A stretch of DNA of 64,000 nucleotides from Devosia riboflavina (lineage in GTDB: Bacteria > Pseudomonadota > Alphaproteobacteria > Rhizobiales > Devosiaceae), in contig NZ_JQGC01000015.1 of NCBI RefSeq assembly GCF_000743575.1, positions 62,001 through 126,000 of the forward strand, in the 5' to 3' direction. Positions 23,045 to 60,867 of this stretch are shown in pieces; the stretch's first letter is position 1; the number at the start of each line of letters is the position of its first letter. The position numbers were made by a program, and so were the translations under genes. Under the pieces are notes generated by a model. It was not told where the DNA came from. It ran no database searches and worked only from the letters and a program-made list of their open reading frames with translations.

Positions 23045-23647
23045 TCAAGCCCTGATGGAAAGAAGCTCCGGAGCGATATCGCGCAGTGCGCCGATCAGCG
23101 GCAAGAGCGGCAGGCCCAGAATAGTGAAATAATCGCCCGTGATCGTCTCGAAGAGGCGGATGGACGGGCCTTCGAGGCGATAGCCGCCAACGGCGGTCAG
23201 GGCCGCATCGCCCTCGAGATCGAGCACCAGGTCGCGTTCTTCCGGCTCGAACGGGCGCATGGTCAATTCGGCGGTTTCGATATCGGACCAGAGCAATTCG
23301 CCATTGCGCACCAGGGCAACCGCAGCATGGAGGCGATGGGTCTTGCCGGCGAGGTGATCGAGCTGGCGCGCCGCGTCTTCCCGCGAAGAAGGCTTGTGGA
23401 GCAATTCCGTGCCGAGAGCCAAAGTTTGATCGGCACCGATCACATAGGCGTTGGGATGGAGTTTTGAGACCGCTTCGGCCTTGGCCCTGGCCAAGAGTCC
23501 CGCGAGATCCCGGCCATCGGCACCGGCCTCCAAAGCCTCTATTTCAAGAGCCCGTTCATCGACAGACGCGGGAACCACGGAGAAGGAAAAAGAAGCCTTT
23601 TCCATCAAGGATTTGCGCGTCGGACTTGCGGAGGCGAGGATCAGCAT
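23045..23647 (-). CDS. maf: Maf-like nucleoside triphosphate pyrophosphatase
   Basis: A 200-residue house-cleaning pyrophosphatase that hydrolyses non-canonical or methylated nucleotides. The N-terminal ILASASPTRKSL and the VIGADQTLALG motif with the catalytic Asp near residue 70 are intact. ATG 23647 gives the family start; an upstream start at 23665 would run into a DnaA-box-like sequence. First gene leftward of the putative origin, followed by aroE, coaE and dnaQ in a compact chain. Confidence 0.92.
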   Translation of the reverse strand: MLILASASPTRKSLMEKASFSFSVVPASVDERALEIEALEAGADGRDLAGLLARAKAEAVSKLHPNAYVIGADQTLALGTELLHKPSSREDAARQLDHLAGKTHRLHAAVALVRNGELLWSDIETAELTMRPFEPEERDLVLDLEGDAALTAVGGYRLEGPSIRLFETITGDYFTILGLPLLPLIGALRDIAPELLSIRA

Positions 23648-23885
23648 GGGGAGAAGTTTTTCCACACTGTCATCCCCAGCTCAAGGCCGAATTGGGGGAA
23701 AGACTCGTAACTTTCCGAAGGGCCGAAACTTGTTCGACCTATTCGATAAAAAGTTAACAATTCCTTTCCGAGATTTTCGGAAGGGGGCTGGGGGAATCTA
23801 TGGGGATAAGCGGAAACGGCGGGAGCGGCTTTTCACACCCCTCATCCACAGGCGTTACCGAATCGTTGACTCGGGAGTCGCCCTG

Positions 23886-23900
23886 TTAAGCTCCTCTTAA
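23886..23900. promoter_or_regulatory. CtrA-type box 1
   Basis: TTAAGCTCCTCTTAA, an exact TTAA-N7-TTAA, the alphaproteobacterial CtrA consensus. A further TTAA follows six bases later (23907-23910). Inside the predicted origin. Confidence 0.6.
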
Positions 23901-23941
23901 ACTCCATTAACGGGCCGGGCCAGTGAGGCCGGCCACAGATG

Positions 23942-23956
23942 TTAACAAAGCGTTAA
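23942..23956. promoter_or_regulatory. CtrA-type box 2
   Basis: TTAACAAAGCGTTAA followed by C, an exact TTAA-N7-TTAAC match. It lies 140 bases upstream of hemE and inside the predicted origin, where CtrA could block initiation or act on hemE. Confidence 0.65.
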
Positions 23957-24095
23957 CGAAGCGCTGTGCTGAAGTGCCGCCGCGGGTGCCGATTGTGGAG
24001 CGCCATGAATTGCGGATACACACCGCCATAAAGAAGAAGATAGGAAGACTAAGAGTCTCTTTTGGGTTTTCGAAGGGGACGGAAGGGTGAGTGCA

Positions 24096-25121
24096 GTGGC
24101 CAAGAAAAGATTGCTCGCAACGGTCCTCGGAGAACGCCAGGACACCCCGCCCATGTGGATCATGCGACAGGCAGGACGCTATCTGCCGGAATATCGCGAG
24201 CTCCGCGCCAAGGCCGGAAGCTTTTTGGATCTTTGCTACAATCCTGATTTTGCGACCGAGGTAACGGTGCAACCGCTTCGTCGGTTCGATCTCGACGCGG
24301 CAATCCTGTTCTCGGACATTTTGGTCATCCCCGATGCACTGGGACAAAAGGTTCGCTTTGAACAGGGAGAAGGACCAGTCCTTGAGCCTCTAACCGTAAG
24401 TGATGTGGATCGGCTGGAGCACGGCGGGGCTTTGGATCATCTGGCGCCTGTGCTGGAGACGGTGCGCCGGCTGCGTGGGGTCCTTGCTCCCGAAAAGACC
24501 CTGATCGGCTTCTGCGGCTCTCCCTGGACGGTTGCGACCTATATGCTCAACGGCAGGGGCTCGCCCGACCAATGGGTCGCCCGCCGCTTTGCGCTAGAAC
24601 ACCCCGCCGCATTTTCGAAGCTGATGGATGTGCTGGTTGAAACCAGCATTGATTACCTCGTCGCCCAGTTTCAGGCCGGCGCCGATGTGGTGCAGCTTTT
24701 TGAAAGCTGGGCGCTCAATCTCGACGATGCGGCTTTTGAAGCTCAGGTCATCGAGCCCAATCGGCGGATCGTCGAAGGCGTGCGAGCAAAAGTGCCTGAT
24801 GCCCCTGTTATCGGTTTTCCGCGCGGCGCGGCTGGCAATTTGAAGCGCTATGCCGAAAAGACTGGGGTCAATGCGCTGGGCCTCGACTATGCGACACCGC
24901 TGTCCTTTGCCGACGATTTTCTGCCAAAGACTTTGCCGGTGCAGGGCAATCTCGATCCGCTGCGGCTCGTCATCGGCGGTAAGGCGATGGAAGAGCGCGT
25001 CCACGAGATCAAGGCAGCGTTTGCGAAGCGCCCGCATATCTTTAATCTCGGCCACGGCATTGTGCCCGAAACCCCGATCGAACACGTTGAGCGGCTCGTT
25101 GAGCTGGTGAAGAAGGGCTAG
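24096..25121 (+). CDS. hemE: Uroporphyrinogen decarboxylase
   Basis: A 341-residue TIM-barrel enzyme that decarboxylates uroporphyrinogen III to coproporphyrinogen III in heme synthesis. PPMWIMRQAGRYLPEYRELR near residue 20 carries the conserved substrate-binding arginines, and FSDILVIPDALGQKVRFEQGEGP near 72 the conserved Asp. GTG 24096 has GGAAGG nine bases upstream; GTG 24087, three codons earlier, is the alternative. First rightward gene from the predicted origin; hemJ follows after eight bases. Confidence 0.96.
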   Translation: MAKKRLLATVLGERQDTPPMWIMRQAGRYLPEYRELRAKAGSFLDLCYNPDFATEVTVQPLRRFDLDAAILFSDILVIPDALGQKVRFEQGEGPVLEPLTVSDVDRLEHGGALDHLAPVLETVRRLRGVLAPEKTLIGFCGSPWTVATYMLNGRGSPDQWVARRFALEHPAAFSKLMDVLVETSIDYLVAQFQAGADVVQLFESWALNLDDAAFEAQVIEPNRRIVEGVRAKVPDAPVIGFPRGAAGNLKRYAEKTGVNALGLDYATPLSFADDFLPKTLPVQGNLDPLRLVIGGKAMEERVHEIKAAFAKRPHIFNLGHGIVPETPIEHVERLVELVKKG

Positions 25122-25555: not shown

Positions 25556-25848
25556 GGATGGGTTCCAAGTGTTCGTACCATTCGAGCATAGCTCTCATGG
25601 CCTTCTCGGCTTGAAAGGCTCCATTGGAGCCTTTCATCCGCTACGCGGAACGCCTCGAAGTTTCACGTGAATCCGCCAAAATCGACTGAGGCTCTTGGTT
25701 TTCCGCCTTGAATACCGGCTTCGATCACGCTACATGAAGCCATCAAGCATCCTTCCTTATGCGCGGCCGATTCCGGCAATGCGCGGTGCATTCCCCAAAA
25801 AAATAAAAATCTCTCCTCTACGATTTACCCCAAGGGTCCATCGCATCC
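25556..25848 (+). promoter_or_regulatory. Leader/intergenic region upstream of rho
   Basis: Nearly 300 bases without a gene. It holds a perfect 11-bp inverted repeat, TGAAAGGCTCC at 25612-25622 and GGAGCCTTTCA at 25626-25636, with only three loop bases and no T-run, a parS-like site at 25660, and an A-rich tract (AAAAAAATAAAAAT) at 25797-25810 before the rho start. rho is autoregulated through its leader in several bacteria; that this holds here is inference. Confidence 0.5.
25660..25673. other. parS-like site 3
   Basis: GTTTCACGTGAATC, identical to site 1 and to the one at 43456. It is in the rho leader, about 1.7 kb from the predicted origin. Confidence 0.65.
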
Positions 25849-27114
25849 ATGCAGAATATCAAGCTCAGTGAGCTGAAGGCCAAATCCCCGGCCGAATTGC
25901 TGGCGTTCGCCGAAGAACTCGAAGTCGAGAATGCTTCGACCATGCGCAAGCAGGAGTTGATGTTCGCGATTCTGAAAGAACTCGCATCGCAGGACATCGA
26001 CATTGTCGGCGAGGGCGTGGTCGAGGTCCTGCCAGACGGCTTTGGCTTCCTCCGCTCTCCTGACGCAAACTACCTTCCGGGCCCTGACGACATCTATGTC
26101 AGCCCCAGCCAGATCCGCCGCTTCGGCCTTCGTACGGGCGACACGGTCGAGGGCGAAATCCGCTCTCCCAAGGAAGGCGAGCGCTATTTTGCGCTGCTCA
26201 AGGTCAACACCATCAATTTCGAAGACCCCGAGGCGGTTCGCCACAAGGTCAATTTCGACAATCTTACCCCGCTTTATCCCGAAGAACGGCTCCGCATGGA
26301 ACTGCCCGATCCGACGTTGAAGGATCGTTCGGCGCGGCTTCTCGATCTCGTGGCGCCGCTCGGCAAGGGCCAGCGCGCCCTGATCGTTGCTCCTCCGCGT
26401 ACTGGTAAGACGGTATTGTTGCAAAATATTGCACAATCCATCGCGACCAATCACCCGGAATGCTATCTTATCGTTCTTCTCATTGACGAACGTCCGGAAG
26501 AAGTGACGGACATGCAGCGCTCGGTGCGCGGCGAAGTCATTTCCTCCACCTTTGACGAACCGGCATCGCGCCACGTTCAGGTCGCCGAAATGGTGATCGA
26601 GAAGGCCAAGCGTCTTGTCGAACACAAGCGCGACGTCGTCATTCTTCTCGATTCTATCACCCGCCTCGGCCGCGCCTATAACACCGTGGTTCCGAGCTCC
26701 GGCAAGGTGCTCACGGGCGGTGTCGATGCCAATGCTCTGCAGCGCCCCAAGCGTTTCTTCGGCGCCGCGCGCAATATCGAAGACGGTGGTTCCTTGACCA
26801 TCATTTCGACGGCGCTGATCGATACCGGTTCGCGCATGGACGAAGTCATCTTCGAAGAATTCAAGGGCACCGGTAACTCGGAAATCATTTTGGACCGCAA
26901 GGTCGCCGACAAGCGTATTTTCCCCGCGCTCGACATTACCAAGTCGGGTACCCGCAAGGAAGAGCTGCTGGTCGAGCCCGATATTCTCAAGAAGATGTAT
27001 GTGCTCCGCCGTATCCTCAATCCGATGGGCACGATCGACGCGATGGAATTCCTTATGGACAAGGTCCGCCAGACCAAGACCAATTCGGATTTCTTCGACT
27101 CGATGAACACCTAA
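25849..27114 (+). CDS. rho: Transcription termination factor Rho
   Basis: A 421-residue hexameric RNA helicase. The N-terminal RNA-binding domain includes the cold-shock-like [15 protein letters not shown] near residue 55. Walker A is [11 protein letters not shown] near 181, the Q-loop region with [13 protein letters not shown] near 265, and the R-loop [14 protein letters not shown] near 285. The C-terminal DIFFDSMNT-like end is typical. Followed closely by mnmE. Confidence 0.97.
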
Positions 27115-27127
27115 AAGCCCAAAAAAA

Positions 27128-28420
27128 ATGCTCGCCGGCGATACGATCATGGCGCTCTCTTCGGGCGCTCTTCCCTCCGGCGTTGCGGTTATCCGCCTCT
27201 CGGGCCCCAGAGTCCGGGAGGCGTTTTTGTACCTCGCTGGTGAACTGCCGGTACCGCGGACAATGGCCCTGCGCCGGATCGGTGCGGACACTCAGCTCGA
27301 TCAGGGCCTAGTGGTCTGGTTTCCGGGCCCGCACAGTTTTACCGGCGAAGACTGCGCCGAGTTTCACGTTCACGGCTCCCCTGCGGGTGTAAAGGCGATC
27401 CTTCGTAGCCTAAATACTTTTGGTATTCGCTTGGCCGGCCCCGGCGAATTTACCCGGCGCGCCTTTGAAAACGGCAAGCTTGACCTGATCGCTGTCGAAG
27501 GTCTTGGTGACCTCCTGAGCGCCGAAACGGAAAAGCAGCGCCAGCAGGCTTTGGCACGCTACGATGGTCGTCTCACCGAAAGGGTCGAAACCTGGCGTGA
27601 TGTCCTGCTCGATCTGCGGGCTGAGATTGAAGCGCGGCTCGACTTTTCCGACGAGGGCGATGTTACCGAGGAACTGCCGTCCAGTTTTGTCGACGAACTG
27701 GCCAATCTCAAAAATTCTCTGGTTGAGGCTTTGGCCAGCATCAACAGCGGCCGCATCGTCCGCGAAGGGGTTCGCGTGGCCCTTGCCGGTGCGCCGAATG
27801 CCGGAAAATCCAGCCTGATCAATGCTCTGTCGAAATCCGACATTGCCATCGTTTCCGACGAAGCCGGCACGACGCGCGACGTTCGGGAAGTACCACTCGA
27901 TATCGGCGGCCAGCTCTTTATCCTTTTGGATCTTGCCGGTCTGCGCGAGACGGATAGTCGCGCGGAAGCCGAAGGCATTCGCCGCGCCGAACGCGCCATC
28001 CAGGATGCTGACATTTTGCTTTGGCTAGAAGCGCCCGATACCGAGGTTGCGCTTCAACCGGCCACGAATGCGACAGTCGTTCGGATTGGCACTAAGTCCG
28101 ACCTCGGCCCCACAGGCAGCTATGACCTTCAGATATCGACCGCCACCGGATTTGGCCTGGATGCCTTGGTAGATCGCCTCCGAGCCATAGGTGAAAATCT
28201 CGTCGGCGGTGAACCATCCTTGGTCAGCCACGAGCGCGATCGGCTAGGGCTGGAGCAAGCCGTTTCCGCAGTAGACGAAGCCGTCCTTTACCACAGCAAT
28301 TGGGAGCTGGCCGCCGAGGCACTCCGCCACGCCTCACTTGCCCTTGAGCGCATGATCGGCCGAGTTGACGCGGAGCAGGTACTGGATCGCTTGTTTGTCA
28401 GCTTCTGCATTGGCAAATGA
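27128..28420 (+). CDS. mnmE: tRNA modification GTPase MnmE
   Basis: A 430-residue GTPase that, with MnmG, forms the cmnm5 group on wobble uridine 34. The N-terminal folate-binding domain ends near residue 115. The G domain has G1 GAPNAGKSSLIN near 220 and the DLAGLRETD G3 loop near 265. The C-terminal C-x-G-K motif is intact as FCIGK, the last residues. It follows rho after 13 bases. The stop codon TGA is the first part of a parS-like site. Confidence 0.96.
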   Translation: MLAGDTIMALSSGALPSGVAVIRLSGPRVREAFLYLAGELPVPRTMALRRIGADTQLDQGLVVWFPGPHSFTGEDCAEFHVHGSPAGVKAILRSLNTFGIRLAGPGEFTRRAFENGKLDLIAVEGLGDLLSAETEKQRQQALARYDGRLTERVETWRDVLLDLRAEIEARLDFSDEGDVTEELPSSFVDELANLKNSLVEALASINSGRIVREGVRVALAGAPNAGKSSLINALSKSDIAIVSDEAGTTRDVREVPLDIGGQLFILLDLAGLRETDSRAEAEGIRRAERAIQDADILLWLEAPDTEVALQPATNATVVRIGTKSDLGPTGSYDLQISTATGFGLDALVDRLRAIGENLVGGEPSLVSHERDRLGLEQAVSAVDEAVLYHSNWELAAEALRHASLALERMIGRVDAEQVLDRLFVSFCIGK

Positions 28421-28432
28421 TTCACGTGAAAC
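28419..28432. other. parS-like site 4
   Basis: GATTCACGTGAAAC overlapping the mnmE stop codon. It is part of a 16-mer with two mismatches to TGTTTCACGTGAAACA. Confidence 0.75.
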
Positions 28433-28465
28433 GTTGTCTTGGGACACGACGCCCAGCCGTCTCGT

Positions 28466-28479
28466 GATTCACGTGAAAC
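28466..28479. other. parS-like site 5
   Basis: GATTCACGTGAAAC within TGATTCACGTGAAACA (28465-28480), one mismatch from consensus, in the mnmE-mnmG gap 33 bases after site 4. Confidence 0.82.
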
Positions 28480-28595
28480 ACAGCGAGAGGTTTTCTTGGG
28501 GCCAAAGACGCTGTATGAGAGCGTCAAACTTCAATTGATCGCTCAGATTTCGTTGCGCCATTTTGTGCGCCAGTGAGCCGTTCAGGAAAATTCCT

Positions 28596-30457
<1,862 letters not shown>

Positions 30458-30458
<1 letters not shown>

Positions 30459-31105
30459 TGGCCGACTACGAGGCGATTGCGCCCTACGCGGCGCATTTTG
30501 GCCGCTCGCTGGATGCAGTTGGTCGCGATCTGGAATCCTATGCTGCCCTGCTGAAGAAATGGCAGGCAGTGCAGAATCTTGTTTCACGTGAAACGTTGGC
30601 TTCTGTCTGGGAACGGCACTTTGCCGACAGCTTGCAGGTATTACCACGGCTAAATGTCGGGGATCGCGAGTTCATGGACCTCGGGAGCGGGGGCGGCTTT
30701 CCGGCTTTGCCACTGGCCATCGCCAGCAAGGGACTTGATCGCCATTTTGTGTTGGTCGAGCCGACCGCAAGAAAGGTCAGTTTTCTGCGGACGGTGGCGC
30801 GTGAGCTCGATCTCAACGTGACGGTCATTGGCCGGCGTAGCGACGAAATTGATTCACGTGAAACACCGGTCCCGGATGTGATCACGTCCCGCGCCCTCGC
30901 CGCGCTGCCACTCCTTTGTGATTGGATGGAGCCGTTTTTCGCTGCGAAAACAAGGGCGATCCTCCATAAAGGGCGGGAACATGTTGATGAACTCACGGAA
31001 TCGGGTGCGCATTGGCACTATGACGTGGTAGTAAACAAGAGTGATACTGATCCGGGCGGCGTGATCCTAACGATCACAAATCTCAAAAGAAAATCAGCGT
31101 CTTAG
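30458..31105 (+). CDS. rsmG: 16S rRNA (guanine-527-N7)-methyltransferase
   Basis: A 215-residue SAM-dependent methyltransferase acting on 16S rRNA. The SAM loop FMDLGSGGGFPALPLAI is near residue 70 and VEPTARKVSFLRTVARELDL near 100. ATG 30458 overlaps the mnmG stop. Two parS-like sites are embedded in the coding sequence, each read as Ser-Arg-Glu in frame; the encoded residues fit the family well enough that the gene is not disrupted. parA follows after 22 bases. Confidence 0.95.
30580..30595. other. parS-like site 6, inside rsmG
   Basis: TGTTTCACGTGAAACG, one mismatch at the last base from the consensus and the most symmetric site in the window. Confidence 0.88.
30850..30865. other. parS-like site 7, inside rsmG
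   Basis: TGATTCACGTGAAACA, one mismatch from consensus, 270 bases after site 6 and 278 bases before parA. Confidence 0.85.
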
Positions 31106-31127: not shown

Positions 31128-31928
31128 TTGGCACCCCGTATCCTGACCCTGGCAAATCAAAAGGGTGGCGTCGGCAAGACGACCACGGCGATCAATCTGG
31201 CGACGGCGCTGGCAGCCATTGGCGAGCGCGTGCTGATTGTCGATCTCGACCCGCAAGGCAATGCTTCCACCGGTCTCGGCATTTCGCGCGATAATCGCGA
31301 GGTCTCGTCCTATGACGTGCTGGTTGGCGAAGCCAGCGTCGCGCAGGCAGCGATCATGACCAGCGTGCCGAACGTCGCGATCATTCCCTCGACCATGGAC
31401 CTCCTGGGCGTAGAATTGACGATCGCGGGGCAGGCCGATCGCGCCTTCAAGCTGCGCGACGCTTTTAAGCAGCTTTCCGACCTGCGGATCAATGATCAGC
31501 CGGTCAGCTATATTCTCATCGATTGCCCGCCCTCGCTGAACCTGCTTACGGTTAATTCCCTGGTGGCGGCCGATGCGGTGCTGGTGCCGCTGCAGTGTGA
31601 ATTCTTTGCGCTGGAAGGCCTCAGCCAGCTCCTTCAGACCATCGAGCAGATTCGCTCGACGCTCAATCCGCGCCTGTCCATTCAGGGCGTGGTGATGACC
31701 ATGTTCGACAAGCGCAACAATCTTTCCGAGCAGGTGCTGGCCGACGTGCGCAGCGAAATGGGCGATCTCGTCTATGACACGGTTATTCCGCGAAACGTGC
31801 GGCTTTCCGAAGCGCCGTCCTACGGAAAACCGGCTTTGCTTTACGATCTGAAATGCGCCGGCAGCCAGGCCTATTTGCGCCTCGCCACCGAAGTCATCCG
31901 CCGCGAGCGGCGGCTGGCAGCAGCCTAG
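31128..31928 (+). CDS. parA: Chromosome partitioning ATPase ParA
   Basis: A 266-residue deviant Walker-type ATPase that moves ParB-parS complexes. The signature KGGVGKTT is at residues 12-19, DLDPQGNASTGLG near 40, and the Walker B-like ILIDCPPSLNLLT near 130. The start is TTG at 31128; CTGGAGG lies seven bases upstream and no later ATG fits. parB follows after ten bases. Confidence 0.96.
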   Translation: MAPRILTLANQKGGVGKTTTAINLATALAAIGERVLIVDLDPQGNASTGLGISRDNREVSSYDVLVGEASVAQAAIMTSVPNVAIIPSTMDLLGVELTIAGQADRAFKLRDAFKQLSDLRINDQPVSYILIDCPPSLNLLTVNSLVAADAVLVPLQCEFFALEGLSQLLQTIEQIRSTLNPRLSIQGVVMTMFDKRNNLSEQVLADVRSEMGDLVYDTVIPRNVRLSEAPSYGKPALLYDLKCAGSQAYLRLATEVIRRERRLAAA

Positions 31929-31938
31929 GAGTTCTAAA

Positions 31939-32814
31939 ATGAACGACAAACCCACACGACTTGGCCGGGGTCTGGCTGCTCTCATCGGTGATATGGCTTC
32001 CCTGGAAGCAGCGCGCGTCACTGACACCGGTTCGGCGGGAAAACGCCTGCCAGTCGATTTCATTATCGCCAACCGCGCCAATCCGCGGCGGACTTTCGAT
32101 CCCGATCAGCTTGAAGAGCTGACCAATTCGATCCGCGAAAAGGGCGTTATGTCGCCGCTGCTGGTGCGGCCGACCGATGATCCCAATATTTTCGAGCTGA
32201 TTGCCGGCGAGCGCCGCTGGCGCGCGGCGCAGAAGGCGGGGCTACATGATGTGCCCGTGATCGTGCGTGAAGTCGATGACAAGGAAGCGCTCGAGCTCGC
32301 CATCATCGAAAACGTGCAGCGTGCCGATCTTAATCCGCTCGAAGAAGCCATGGGCTATGGCCAGCTCATTGAACAGTTCGACTATACGCAGCAGGACCTG
32401 GCGCAGGTGATCGGCAAGAGCCGCTCGCATGTGGCTAACACCCTGCGCTTGCTGAAATTGCCCGAAGACGTGCGCGGCATGGTGTCGAGTGGCACTCTTA
32501 CCGCCGGTCACGCGCGCACGCTGATTACGGTGGAAGATCCATCGGGCCTGGCGCGGCAGATCGTCGACAAGGGACTGTCTGTCCGCGAAGCGGAAGCGCT
32601 TAGCCAGCAGCGAGAGGCGCCGGCGCGAAAAATTTCGCCCGGTGAGCCGGTGCGCGATGCTGATACGGTGGCGCTGGAGCGTCGTCTGTCGGATGTTTTG
32701 GGTCTGTCCGTGTCGCTGAACCATTCGGAGCGCGGCGGGCGGGTGGAAATCCGCTACAAGACGCTGGAGCAGCTCGATGCGCTGTGTCTAAAACTCACCG
32801 GGCAGCATAATTAG
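31939..32814 (+). CDS. parB: Chromosome partitioning protein ParB
   Basis: A 291-residue CTP-dependent DNA clamp that loads at parS. The N-terminus RLGRGLAALIGDM is the ParA-stimulating type. The CTP-binding arginine patch GERRWRA is at residues 90-96. The helix-turn-helix YTQQDLAQVIGKSRSHVANTLRLL is near 150-173, and the C-terminal dimerisation domain ends GQHN. The many parS-like sites nearby are its expected targets. Followed by a terminator. Confidence 0.96.
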   Translation: MNDKPTRLGRGLAALIGDMASLEAARVTDTGSAGKRLPVDFIIANRANPRRTFDPDQLEELTNSIREKGVMSPLLVRPTDDPNIFELIAGERRWRAAQKAGLHDVPVIVREVDDKEALELAIIENVQRADLNPLEEAMGYGQLIEQFDYTQQDLAQVIGKSRSHVANTLRLLKLPEDVRGMVSSGTLTAGHARTLITVEDPSGLARQIVDKGLSVREAEALSQQREAPARKISPGEPVRDADTVALERRLSDVLGLSVSLNHSERGGRVEIRYKTLEQLDALCLKLTGQHN

Positions 32815-50912: not shown

Positions 50913-51692
50913 TCAGATTTGTTCCGCCATTTCCGCGCGCGCGCTTTCATAGGCGTGGCGCGCTGAAGCGCGGATGCGCAGATGCGTGCCCTGCTTGACG
51001 GTCTGCGTGAAGAGTTGCTCGCGTTCCTCTTTGGTCGAGAGAAAGAACGGAAAGCGCTGGGCGACGCGGCTGCGGATGTTTTCGACCGGCGCGCCGAAGA
51101 GCGCCACCGGAAAATGCAGGCCCGGATAGGTCCGCACATCGCTCATGATTTCCGAGCCGAAGACGCGCTTGTAAAACGGTCCGTGCTCGGGACGCACCAG
51201 CGCCAGGCACAGATCGGCATTGAAATGCACCGAAGCCATGGCGGCGACGCGCAGCGTCAGGAAAGGCAAGGCCGGATAGGCCAGCGAGGCTTCGCGATCG
51301 GCCGTAAACCGGCTGGGATCGATGAAGGTCCTTCCAGCGTCCACCATCGGGGCCAGGATATCGGGGCAGACCTTCATGCTGGGTGAGCGCCGATACTGCG
51401 CCGTCAGGTGGTGAAGGCGGATGGAACTAACCAGTTCGCCCTTGATATAGATGCCAAAGCTCATGGCATTGGGCGTTTCATCGAGATCGTCGATGCAGAT
51501 TTCCTCCGCATTGTGATCCATGAAACCCTCACGCACATAGGCGCGATAGCGCAATTTATAGATCGGGTCGTCGATGACGCTGGCATCGACCCGCGCATAG
51601 CTCACATCGTCGAGCACATCGATGAGGGCGCCCGAAAAGCGCGAGGGTTCTCCGGCGCGGGCTGCAGCCGCGCTGTCCTTGTCGATCGCCAT
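50913..51692 (-). CDS. N-acyl amino acid synthase FeeM-like / acyltransferase
   Basis: A 259-residue GNAT-fold protein. RYRAYVREGFMDHNAEEICIDDLDETPNAMSFGIY near residues 48-82 and the following strand (ELVSSIRLHHLT) match FeeM-type N-acyl amino acid synthases and acyl-homoserine lactone synthase relatives. The substrate, an acyl donor plus an amine, is unknown. ATG 51692. Between 41 and 55 bases upstream of the start lies a perfect CtrA-type box. tRNA-Thr lies just beyond its 3' end. Confidence 0.75.
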   Translation of the reverse strand: MAIDKDSAAAARAGEPSRFSGALIDVLDDVSYARVDASVIDDPIYKLRYRAYVREGFMDHNAEEICIDDLDETPNAMSFGIYIKGELVSSIRLHHLTAQYRRSPSMKVCPDILAPMVDAGRTFIDPSRFTADREASLAYPALPFLTLRVAAMASVHFNADLCLALVRPEHGPFYKRVFGSEIMSDVRTYPGLHFPVALFGAPVENIRSRVAQRFPFFLSTKEEREQLFTQTVKQGTHLRIRASARHAYESARAEMAEQI

Positions 51693-51732: not shown

Positions 51733-51747
51733 TTAACGTTTCATTAA
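51733..51747. promoter_or_regulatory. CtrA-type box upstream of the FeeM-like gene
   Basis: TTAACGTTTCATTAA followed by CC; exact TTAA-N7-TTAAC match. The box is 41-55 bases before the start codon, a typical promoter position. Confidence 0.6.
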
Positions 51748-60657: not shown

Positions 60658-60867
60658 AATTTGACTCCGAATCCCTCGGGAGTCGAGTCCCTTTCTGAAG
60701 GCCCTCAAAAGAGGGTGTGGCTCGCCTGCATCAGCGGCGGTCAAGACCGCGTGAGCAGTACTTGCGCCCATTGAGCAAAACCAGCTTCTGCCCCAGTCTT
60801 TGTTTCGCGGCCCTCCCGGCTCAATCGCAAACCCGTTCCTTCACCCCCGTGCACGAGGCTGAAAGCC

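Follow-up and report, generated by a model that had tools for sequence, protein, structure and literature searches.

A conserved, putatively CtrA-bound gap beside hemE in Devosia occupies the position of Caulobacter-type origins, with strand polarity that contests an initiation role

Among the known systems closest to the Devosia locus described here, those of Sinorhizobium meliloti and Brucella belong to the same order as Devosia, and that of Hyphomonas neptunium lies outside it. The origin of Caulobacter crescentus, Cori, adjoins hemE, is 404 bp long, and is described as combining an A+T content above the genome mean with five TTAA-N7-TTAA CtrA boxes and weak DnaA sites (PMC1914354, PMC4468827). 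Its boundary is given as hemE/COG1806 (PMC1914354), and CtrA is proposed to keep DnaA away from this origin, whose DnaA sites are deliberately weak (PMC4468827). The predicted origins of Rickettsia and Wolbachia have a hemE boundary with CtrA, DnaA and IHF motifs found in silico (PMC1914354), but both genomes are very A+T-rich and Wolbachia has another boundary gene. In H. neptunium, ChIP-seq is described as placing CtrA at a site adjoining the origin (PMC7200025), whereas the Devosia locus is known from sequence only. The S. meliloti origin, unlike the box-bearing Devosia gap, is reported to be without CtrA motifs and unbound (PMC4433202), and the CtrA of B. abortus is reported not to bind the origin (PMC2877005). 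A literature search, covering papers available without subscription, found nothing on Devosia with CtrA or a replication origin.

In this study, we examine a gap that an original prediction had called a CtrA-linked chromosomal origin. It lies in the window, the 64-kb stretch of DNA analysed here (bases 62001-126000 of the 259-kb contig C15 in G000, a 113-contig draft genome of the genus Devosia). The gap adjoins hemE, its anatomy is conserved among relatives, and the genome encodes CtrA. The genes around it, in window coordinates, are as follows.

23045..23647, minus strand: maf (Maf family), matched by Maf models with a best E of 3.2e-67, below the NCBIfam curated cut-offs
23648..24086, no strand: the origin-like gap between divergent maf and hemE, non-coding, conserved and of near-constant length
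24087..25121, plus strand: hemE, uroporphyrinogen decarboxylase (TIGR01464, above the NCBIfam cut-off)
25849..27114, plus strand: rho (TIGR00767)
27128..28420, plus strand: mnmE (profile match)
28563..30458, plus strand: mnmG (TIGR00136)
31128..31928, plus strand: ParA-type ATPase, named by reading the translation
31939..32814, plus strand: ParB-type protein, named by reading the translation

Read rightward, the order is thus maf on the minus strand, the gap, then hemE, rho, mnmE, mnmG and predicted parA and parB on the plus strand. The length of 448 bases first given for the gap holds if hemE starts at 24096; up to the GTG at 24087 it is 439 bp. Like Cori, the gap is richer in A+T than its surroundings (G+C 0.531, against 0.614 for the window) and carries weak DnaA-like sites and TTAA-N7-TTAA boxes. 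It differs in being bounded by maf rather than COG1806 and in having one or two exact boxes rather than five. Its IHF-like content does not exceed chance, its strand polarity shows no switch in most maps, and what is known of it comes from the bases themselves. CtrA is encoded elsewhere in the genome, at G000:C19:79263-79940 (NF045991, 425 bits; cut-off 350). This protein is 84% identical to the Caulobacter CtrA sequence.

To compare the gap among relatives, we assembled a Devosia-family set, a grouping of our own, from 30 genus loci (out of 49 genus genomes) plus those 11 named loci whose hemE is most nearly identical (69-84%). The alignment leaves out L157 and L161, which have no recognised maf beside hemE, and after removal of duplicates it holds 37 distinct gaps. 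These are 425-462 bp long with a mean column identity of 0.693, and blocks at 90-100% identity span the whole gap at near-fixed spacing, with strong conservation also less than 100 bp from hemE. In three genomes of the collection (G026, G039, G015) hemE itself is split or contains a stop, which may be sequencing error. The features within the gap, with their conservation in the alignment, are listed below.

23658..23666, plus strand: DnaA-like box TTTTCCACA, one mismatch from TTATCCACA
23670..23678, plus strand: weak DnaA-like box TCATCCCCA, two mismatches; identical in 26/37 gaps, with TCATCCACA in 4 more
23702..23706, no strand: GANTC site, from the window GANTC scan
23794..23798, no strand: GANTC site, from the window GANTC scan
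23801..23809, minus strand: DnaA-like box TTATCCCCA, one mismatch; identical in 12/37
23842..23850, plus strand: DnaA-like box TCATCCACA, one mismatch; identical in 7/37, poorly conserved
23860..23879, no strand: GANTC cluster next to box 1, with sites at 23860, 23868 and 23875 within 20 bp
23886..23900, plus strand: CtrA-type box 1, TTAAGCTCCTCTTAA, exact in the aligned columns of 34/37
23942..23956, plus strand: CtrA-type box 2, TTAACAAAGCGTTAA, exact in the aligned columns of 13/37
24053..24057, no strand: GANTC site near hemE; a GANTC column two bases further on is held in 30/37

The two exact TTAA-N7-TTAA boxes predicted at 23886 and 23942 are indeed present, and the window holds three such motifs; over 100 dinucleotide shuffles the count averages 0.09 and never exceeds 1. 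Across the draft genome, TTAA-N7-TTAAC gives 25 strand rows, read as 19 sites, against 18 rows for a backwards control, so that genome-wide the motif barely exceeds its control; the unusual feature is two TTAA-N7-TTAA copies only 56 bp apart in one gap. The absence of boxes from relatives had been named as evidence against the prediction, and they are found there: at least one exact box occurs in 36 of the 37 distinct gaps and two in 15, where a simple shuffle predicts 0.004 per gap, and L157 and L161, outside the alignment, each carry two. Of the 30 genus loci, 29 have an exact box 1 and 12 an exact box 2. Within box 1, identity averages 0.97 over the eight half-site columns and 0.61 over the seven spacer columns. 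There are 24 distinct spacers, and their columns fall short of the regional mean (0.69). Half-sites kept beside a varying spacer are what one expects of a protein-binding site under selection. The pattern is weaker in box 2, whose half-sites average 0.88 with one degenerate column at 0.49. On these grounds the gap is very probably a conserved CtrA-bound regulatory element.

Other copies of the motif lie far from the gap. A further close pair of TTAA-N7-TTAAC occurs at C3:216411 and 216443 of G000 (216411-216458), 32 bp apart. The third exact TTAA-N7-TTAA of the window, at 51733-51747, is about 40 bp upstream of a minus-strand open reading frame (50913-51692) whose translation reads by eye as an acyl-homoserine-lactone-synthase-type protein, and the 16-mer at 51733 is found again at G000:C1:301176.

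The DnaA-box-like 9-mers predicted at 23658, 23801 and 23842 are likewise present, each one mismatch from TTATCCACA. The first is near-invariant (TTTTCCACA in 35 of 37 gaps, TTATCCACA in one). As a class such 9-mers are not enriched in the window (6 observed, 4.3 expected). The CcrM-type motif GANTC is threefold depleted across the window (98 observed, 310 expected), with six copies within the 439 bp of the gap. The columns at 23860, 23868 and 23875 are held in 30, 33 and 20 of the 37 gaps, respectively. At the far end of the window, four GANTC sites lie within 27 bp (60663-60689) despite this depletion. IHF-like sites, sought with one mismatch to the consensus, number 18 in the window against 18.2 expected, none beyond chance, and the sole match inside the gap overlaps box 2.

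The position of the gap was compared with that of Cori in a profile search of 81 genomes. PF03618 (COG1806, Kinase-PPPase) was matched in 30 of the 32 genomes of other families and in none of the 49 genus genomes, some of which are incomplete. In 26 of those 30, COG1806 diverges from hemE at a distance of 397-610 bp, hit to hit, as read off match coordinates and confirmed with Pfam for one Mesorhizobium example; in the remaining four the two genes are on separate contigs. The genus thus appears to be without COG1806 yet has kept a gap of the same size, and maf now adjoins it. Upstream maf is also found in the sampled Rhizobium, Agrobacterium and Brucella loci.

Exact boxes at this position are found beyond the Devosia family. 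Twenty of the 26 same-contig hemE/COG1806 gaps were sampled, each from a different other family, and eight contain an exact box. Shuffling predicts about 0.5 for the 20 together, and a single very A+T-rich genome, itself without a box, contributes half of that. The view that CtrA boxes are a peculiarity of Devosia within the order was dropped because of these eight gaps. At the motif level, therefore, the Sinorhizobium and Brucella reports cannot be extended to the whole order. Among 69 named loci outside the Devosia family, seven carry an exact box upstream of hemE. Four of these are Cohaesibacter, and the others are a Nitratireductor MAG, an Aurantimonas and an uncultured alphaproteobacterium; no box was found in the Mesorhizobium, Rhizobium, Agrobacterium, Brucella and Bradyrhizobium loci of that sample.

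Chromosome-segregation sequences also cluster here. Motif scans placed the following parS-like sites in the window, not far from the predicted parAB genes at 31.1-32.8 kb.

25659..25674, plus strand: parS-like site downstream of hemE, with a counterpart at the matching place in 13/13 genomes scanned
28418..28480, plus strand: two parS-like sites (28418, 28465), from the parS-like motif scan
30580..30865, plus strand: two parS-like sites (30580, 30850), from the parS-like motif scan

In all 13 genomes scanned, parS-like sites (TTTCACGTGAAW) lie within 77 kb of hemE and nowhere else; the backwards control gave no match in 11 genomes, two in G044 and one in G027. The array is lopsided, reaching 46-77 kb upstream of hemE and, in 11 of the 13 genomes, 5-18 kb downstream; in G025 and G040 the downstream reach is 43-44 kb.

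Strand composition gives a different picture. A skew minimum away from hemE was the other outcome named beforehand as evidence against the prediction. Minima were taken within sampled stretches of a draft genome and of relatives, and they do not bear out a GC-skew minimum at hemE. In the 0-340 kb stretch of G016 the minimum is at 39 kb and hemE at 203 kb; on contig C15 it is at 19.9 kb and hemE at 86 kb. The minima of G048 and G007 fall at or near the end of the stretch and that of G044 is shallow, so these three locate nothing, and none is at hemE. Synonymous-site skew, computed with the transcription part removed, shows no switch at hemE in four of the five genomes: C15, G048 and G044 have positive values to its left and right, and G016 has a positive value on the left and one near zero on the right. 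In G007 it changes sign at hemE, from -0.087 on the left to +0.013, +0.062 and +0.098 on the right. When the 10 kb on either side of hemE are compared, the right side is the more G-rich in none of nine Devosia-family loci (2 of 11 dropped) and in 7 of 18 loci of the Bradyrhizobium group (2 of 20 dropped). Of the 49 loci belonging to neither, six had flanks too short to use, and in 38 of the remaining 43 the right side is the more G-rich. Skew has been judged insufficient in several alphaproteobacteria (PMC1914354). Gene-strand bias was uninformative, and a search for the dif consensus found none in 11 Devosia genomes and one weak match in a Mesorhizobium contig.

The polar octamer GGGCAGGG (KOPS), which runs 125 to 2 in the sampled arms of G016, is the ground for a less likely alternative: that the active Devosia origin lies upstream of hemE, by 70-166 kb in the three genomes where the switch could be placed, and that the maf/hemE element is the ancestral origin site kept for another task, perhaps as a promoter of hemE under CtrA and CcrM control or as a site that titrates DnaA. 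Summed over five long maps (C15, G016, G048, G007, G044), KOPS in the 40 kb on each side of hemE number 34+/2- on the left and 33+/2- on the right, which means that they run rightward through hemE without a switch. The switch is placed at 208.3-208.9 kb of the joined G007 stretch, 70 kb left of hemE; at 192-205 kb in G048, 82-95 kb left; and at 37-61 kb in the complete genome G016, with hemE at 203 kb and so 142-166 kb away. In every map, rightward KOPS between switch and hemE outnumber the average for 55 permuted octamers, ranking first to third among the 56, in segments whose ends were picked after the maps had been seen and with permuted octamers leaning likewise in C15 and G016. In 15 of 16 pairwise comparisons the conserved sites make up less than half of those that can be aligned, and in the other exactly half, so many sites arose separately. 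In G006, KOPS among the matches listed are 23+/0- left of hemE over 1.2 Mb. All those listed over 2.3 Mb of this genome (C2:131626-2473142) share one orientation, also across hemE (1.378 Mb); G006 either has its origin at a great distance from hemE or is a rearranged assembly.

Several maps weigh against this displaced origin. The KOPS of G044 are mixed and its switch could not be placed, the sparse map of G010 would suit a switch at hemE or as far as 97 kb to its left, and the synonymous skew of G007 switches at hemE itself. Sampled round the circle, KOPS put the G016 terminus at about 2.3-2.4 Mb; by arithmetic, the point opposite the terminus falls close to hemE in G016 and G010. In G048 that point is 80-165 kb from hemE, and the KOPS switch fits it better. 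Around hemE, moreover, KOPS do not guide reliably in this order. In the pooled 10-kb flanks of 49 other loci they show no switch (left 20+/17-, right 22+/18-) though skew does, and Mesorhizobium AR07 failed as a polarity control, its KOPS being sparse and mixed without marking hemE and its skew about zero round hemE. In Azorhizobium, both KOPS and skew are described as supporting the origin (PMC2443382). When the 11 named loci of the Devosia family are pooled, their 10-kb flanks show no polarity (left 12+/11-, right 14+/10-). The five with the highest hemE identities, L152-L156, have 11+/3- on the left and 4+/0- on the right; the more distant L157, L161 and L162 have 0+/7- on the left, reversed as in the Bradyrhizobium group. 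This contrast marks the rightward pattern as a trait of closer Devosia relatives.

Nor did the stretches scanned yield another origin-like sequence. A DnaA-box cluster scan of the G016, G048 and C15 stretches found a cluster at hemE in C15 only, with none at hemE in G016 or G048, and a looser scan of all five stretches found none anywhere, the hemE gap included; because they miss even hemE, these scans are weak. In the 190 kb of G007 from 150 to 340 kb, the maf/hemE gap has seven GANTC sites against 0-2 elsewhere and the highest A+T among the best 22 of 30 intergenic stretches, and no second A+T-rich, GANTC-rich origin-like gap is found among those 22. Many conserved intergenic stretches there are GC-rich and resemble missed genes, and the short stretches inspected at the KOPS switch are coding or terminator-like. 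As a candidate origin we also considered an exact TTATCCACA that adjoins a parS-like site in G007 and in G048, and rejected it: it is a single box, and none was seen at the parS sites inspected in C15, G016 and G044.

We therefore weigh two sets of evidence. The hemE-adjacent position, the CtrA boxes, the GANTC cluster, the near-constant length and the parS-like sites nearby count for an origin of the Cori type. KOPS without a switch at hemE, synonymous skew without one in four of five genomes, the few and mostly weakly conserved DnaA-like boxes and the lack of an IHF-like excess count against an origin. We prefer to read the gap as the Devosia family's version of the Caulobacter-type origin, which the balance moderately favours; that it is also the active origin of replication seems somewhat probable, at a similar strength. 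Of the original prediction, what stands is conserved boxes at the alphaproteobacterial origin position in a genome that encodes CtrA, and what does not is a skew minimum at hemE: the two clear GC-skew minima are elsewhere, and so is the KOPS switch in the three genomes where it was placed. A conserved Cori-type element is well supported; its role as the active origin is probable but contested by polarity.

By analogy, the gap may work in Devosia as Cori does in Caulobacter, including repression of initiation by CtrA. Phosphorylated CtrA would bind box 1, and box 2 where that is intact. Box 1 has the GANTC cluster beside it and weak DnaA-like sites on either side, and CtrA bound there would hinder DnaA assembly, so that initiation would be held until CtrA is removed. 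Methylation of the GANTC cluster by CcrM could mark whether the origin has already been copied.

Two further readings are less probable than a displaced origin with a relict at hemE. It is rather unlikely, though compatible with the maps, that the start of replication, or at any rate the junction of the replichores, has shifted by 70 kb or more, leaving the Cori-type element with its CtrA and CcrM sites, and the parS array, behind at hemE. That the gap is a promoter region only, through which CtrA and CcrM regulate hemE or maf, is very improbable: CtrA is mainly a transcription factor and the stretches less than 100 bp from hemE are conserved as a promoter would be, but conserved blocks cross the entire gap at near-fixed spacing, origins of the class have their boundary here, and the genus kept the gap without the neighbouring gene.

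At this locus, then, a Cori-type element and the strand polarity around it do not match. If the start of replication did move, segregation and cell-cycle control would be spatially uncoupled from initiation in Devosia. For the order, the reported failure of CtrA to bind the origin in two well-studied members, Sinorhizobium and Brucella, invites the reading that the link between CtrA and the origin was lost. The boxes of the Devosia family, together with those in eight of 20 gaps from other families, suggest instead that this link is widespread and its absence local.
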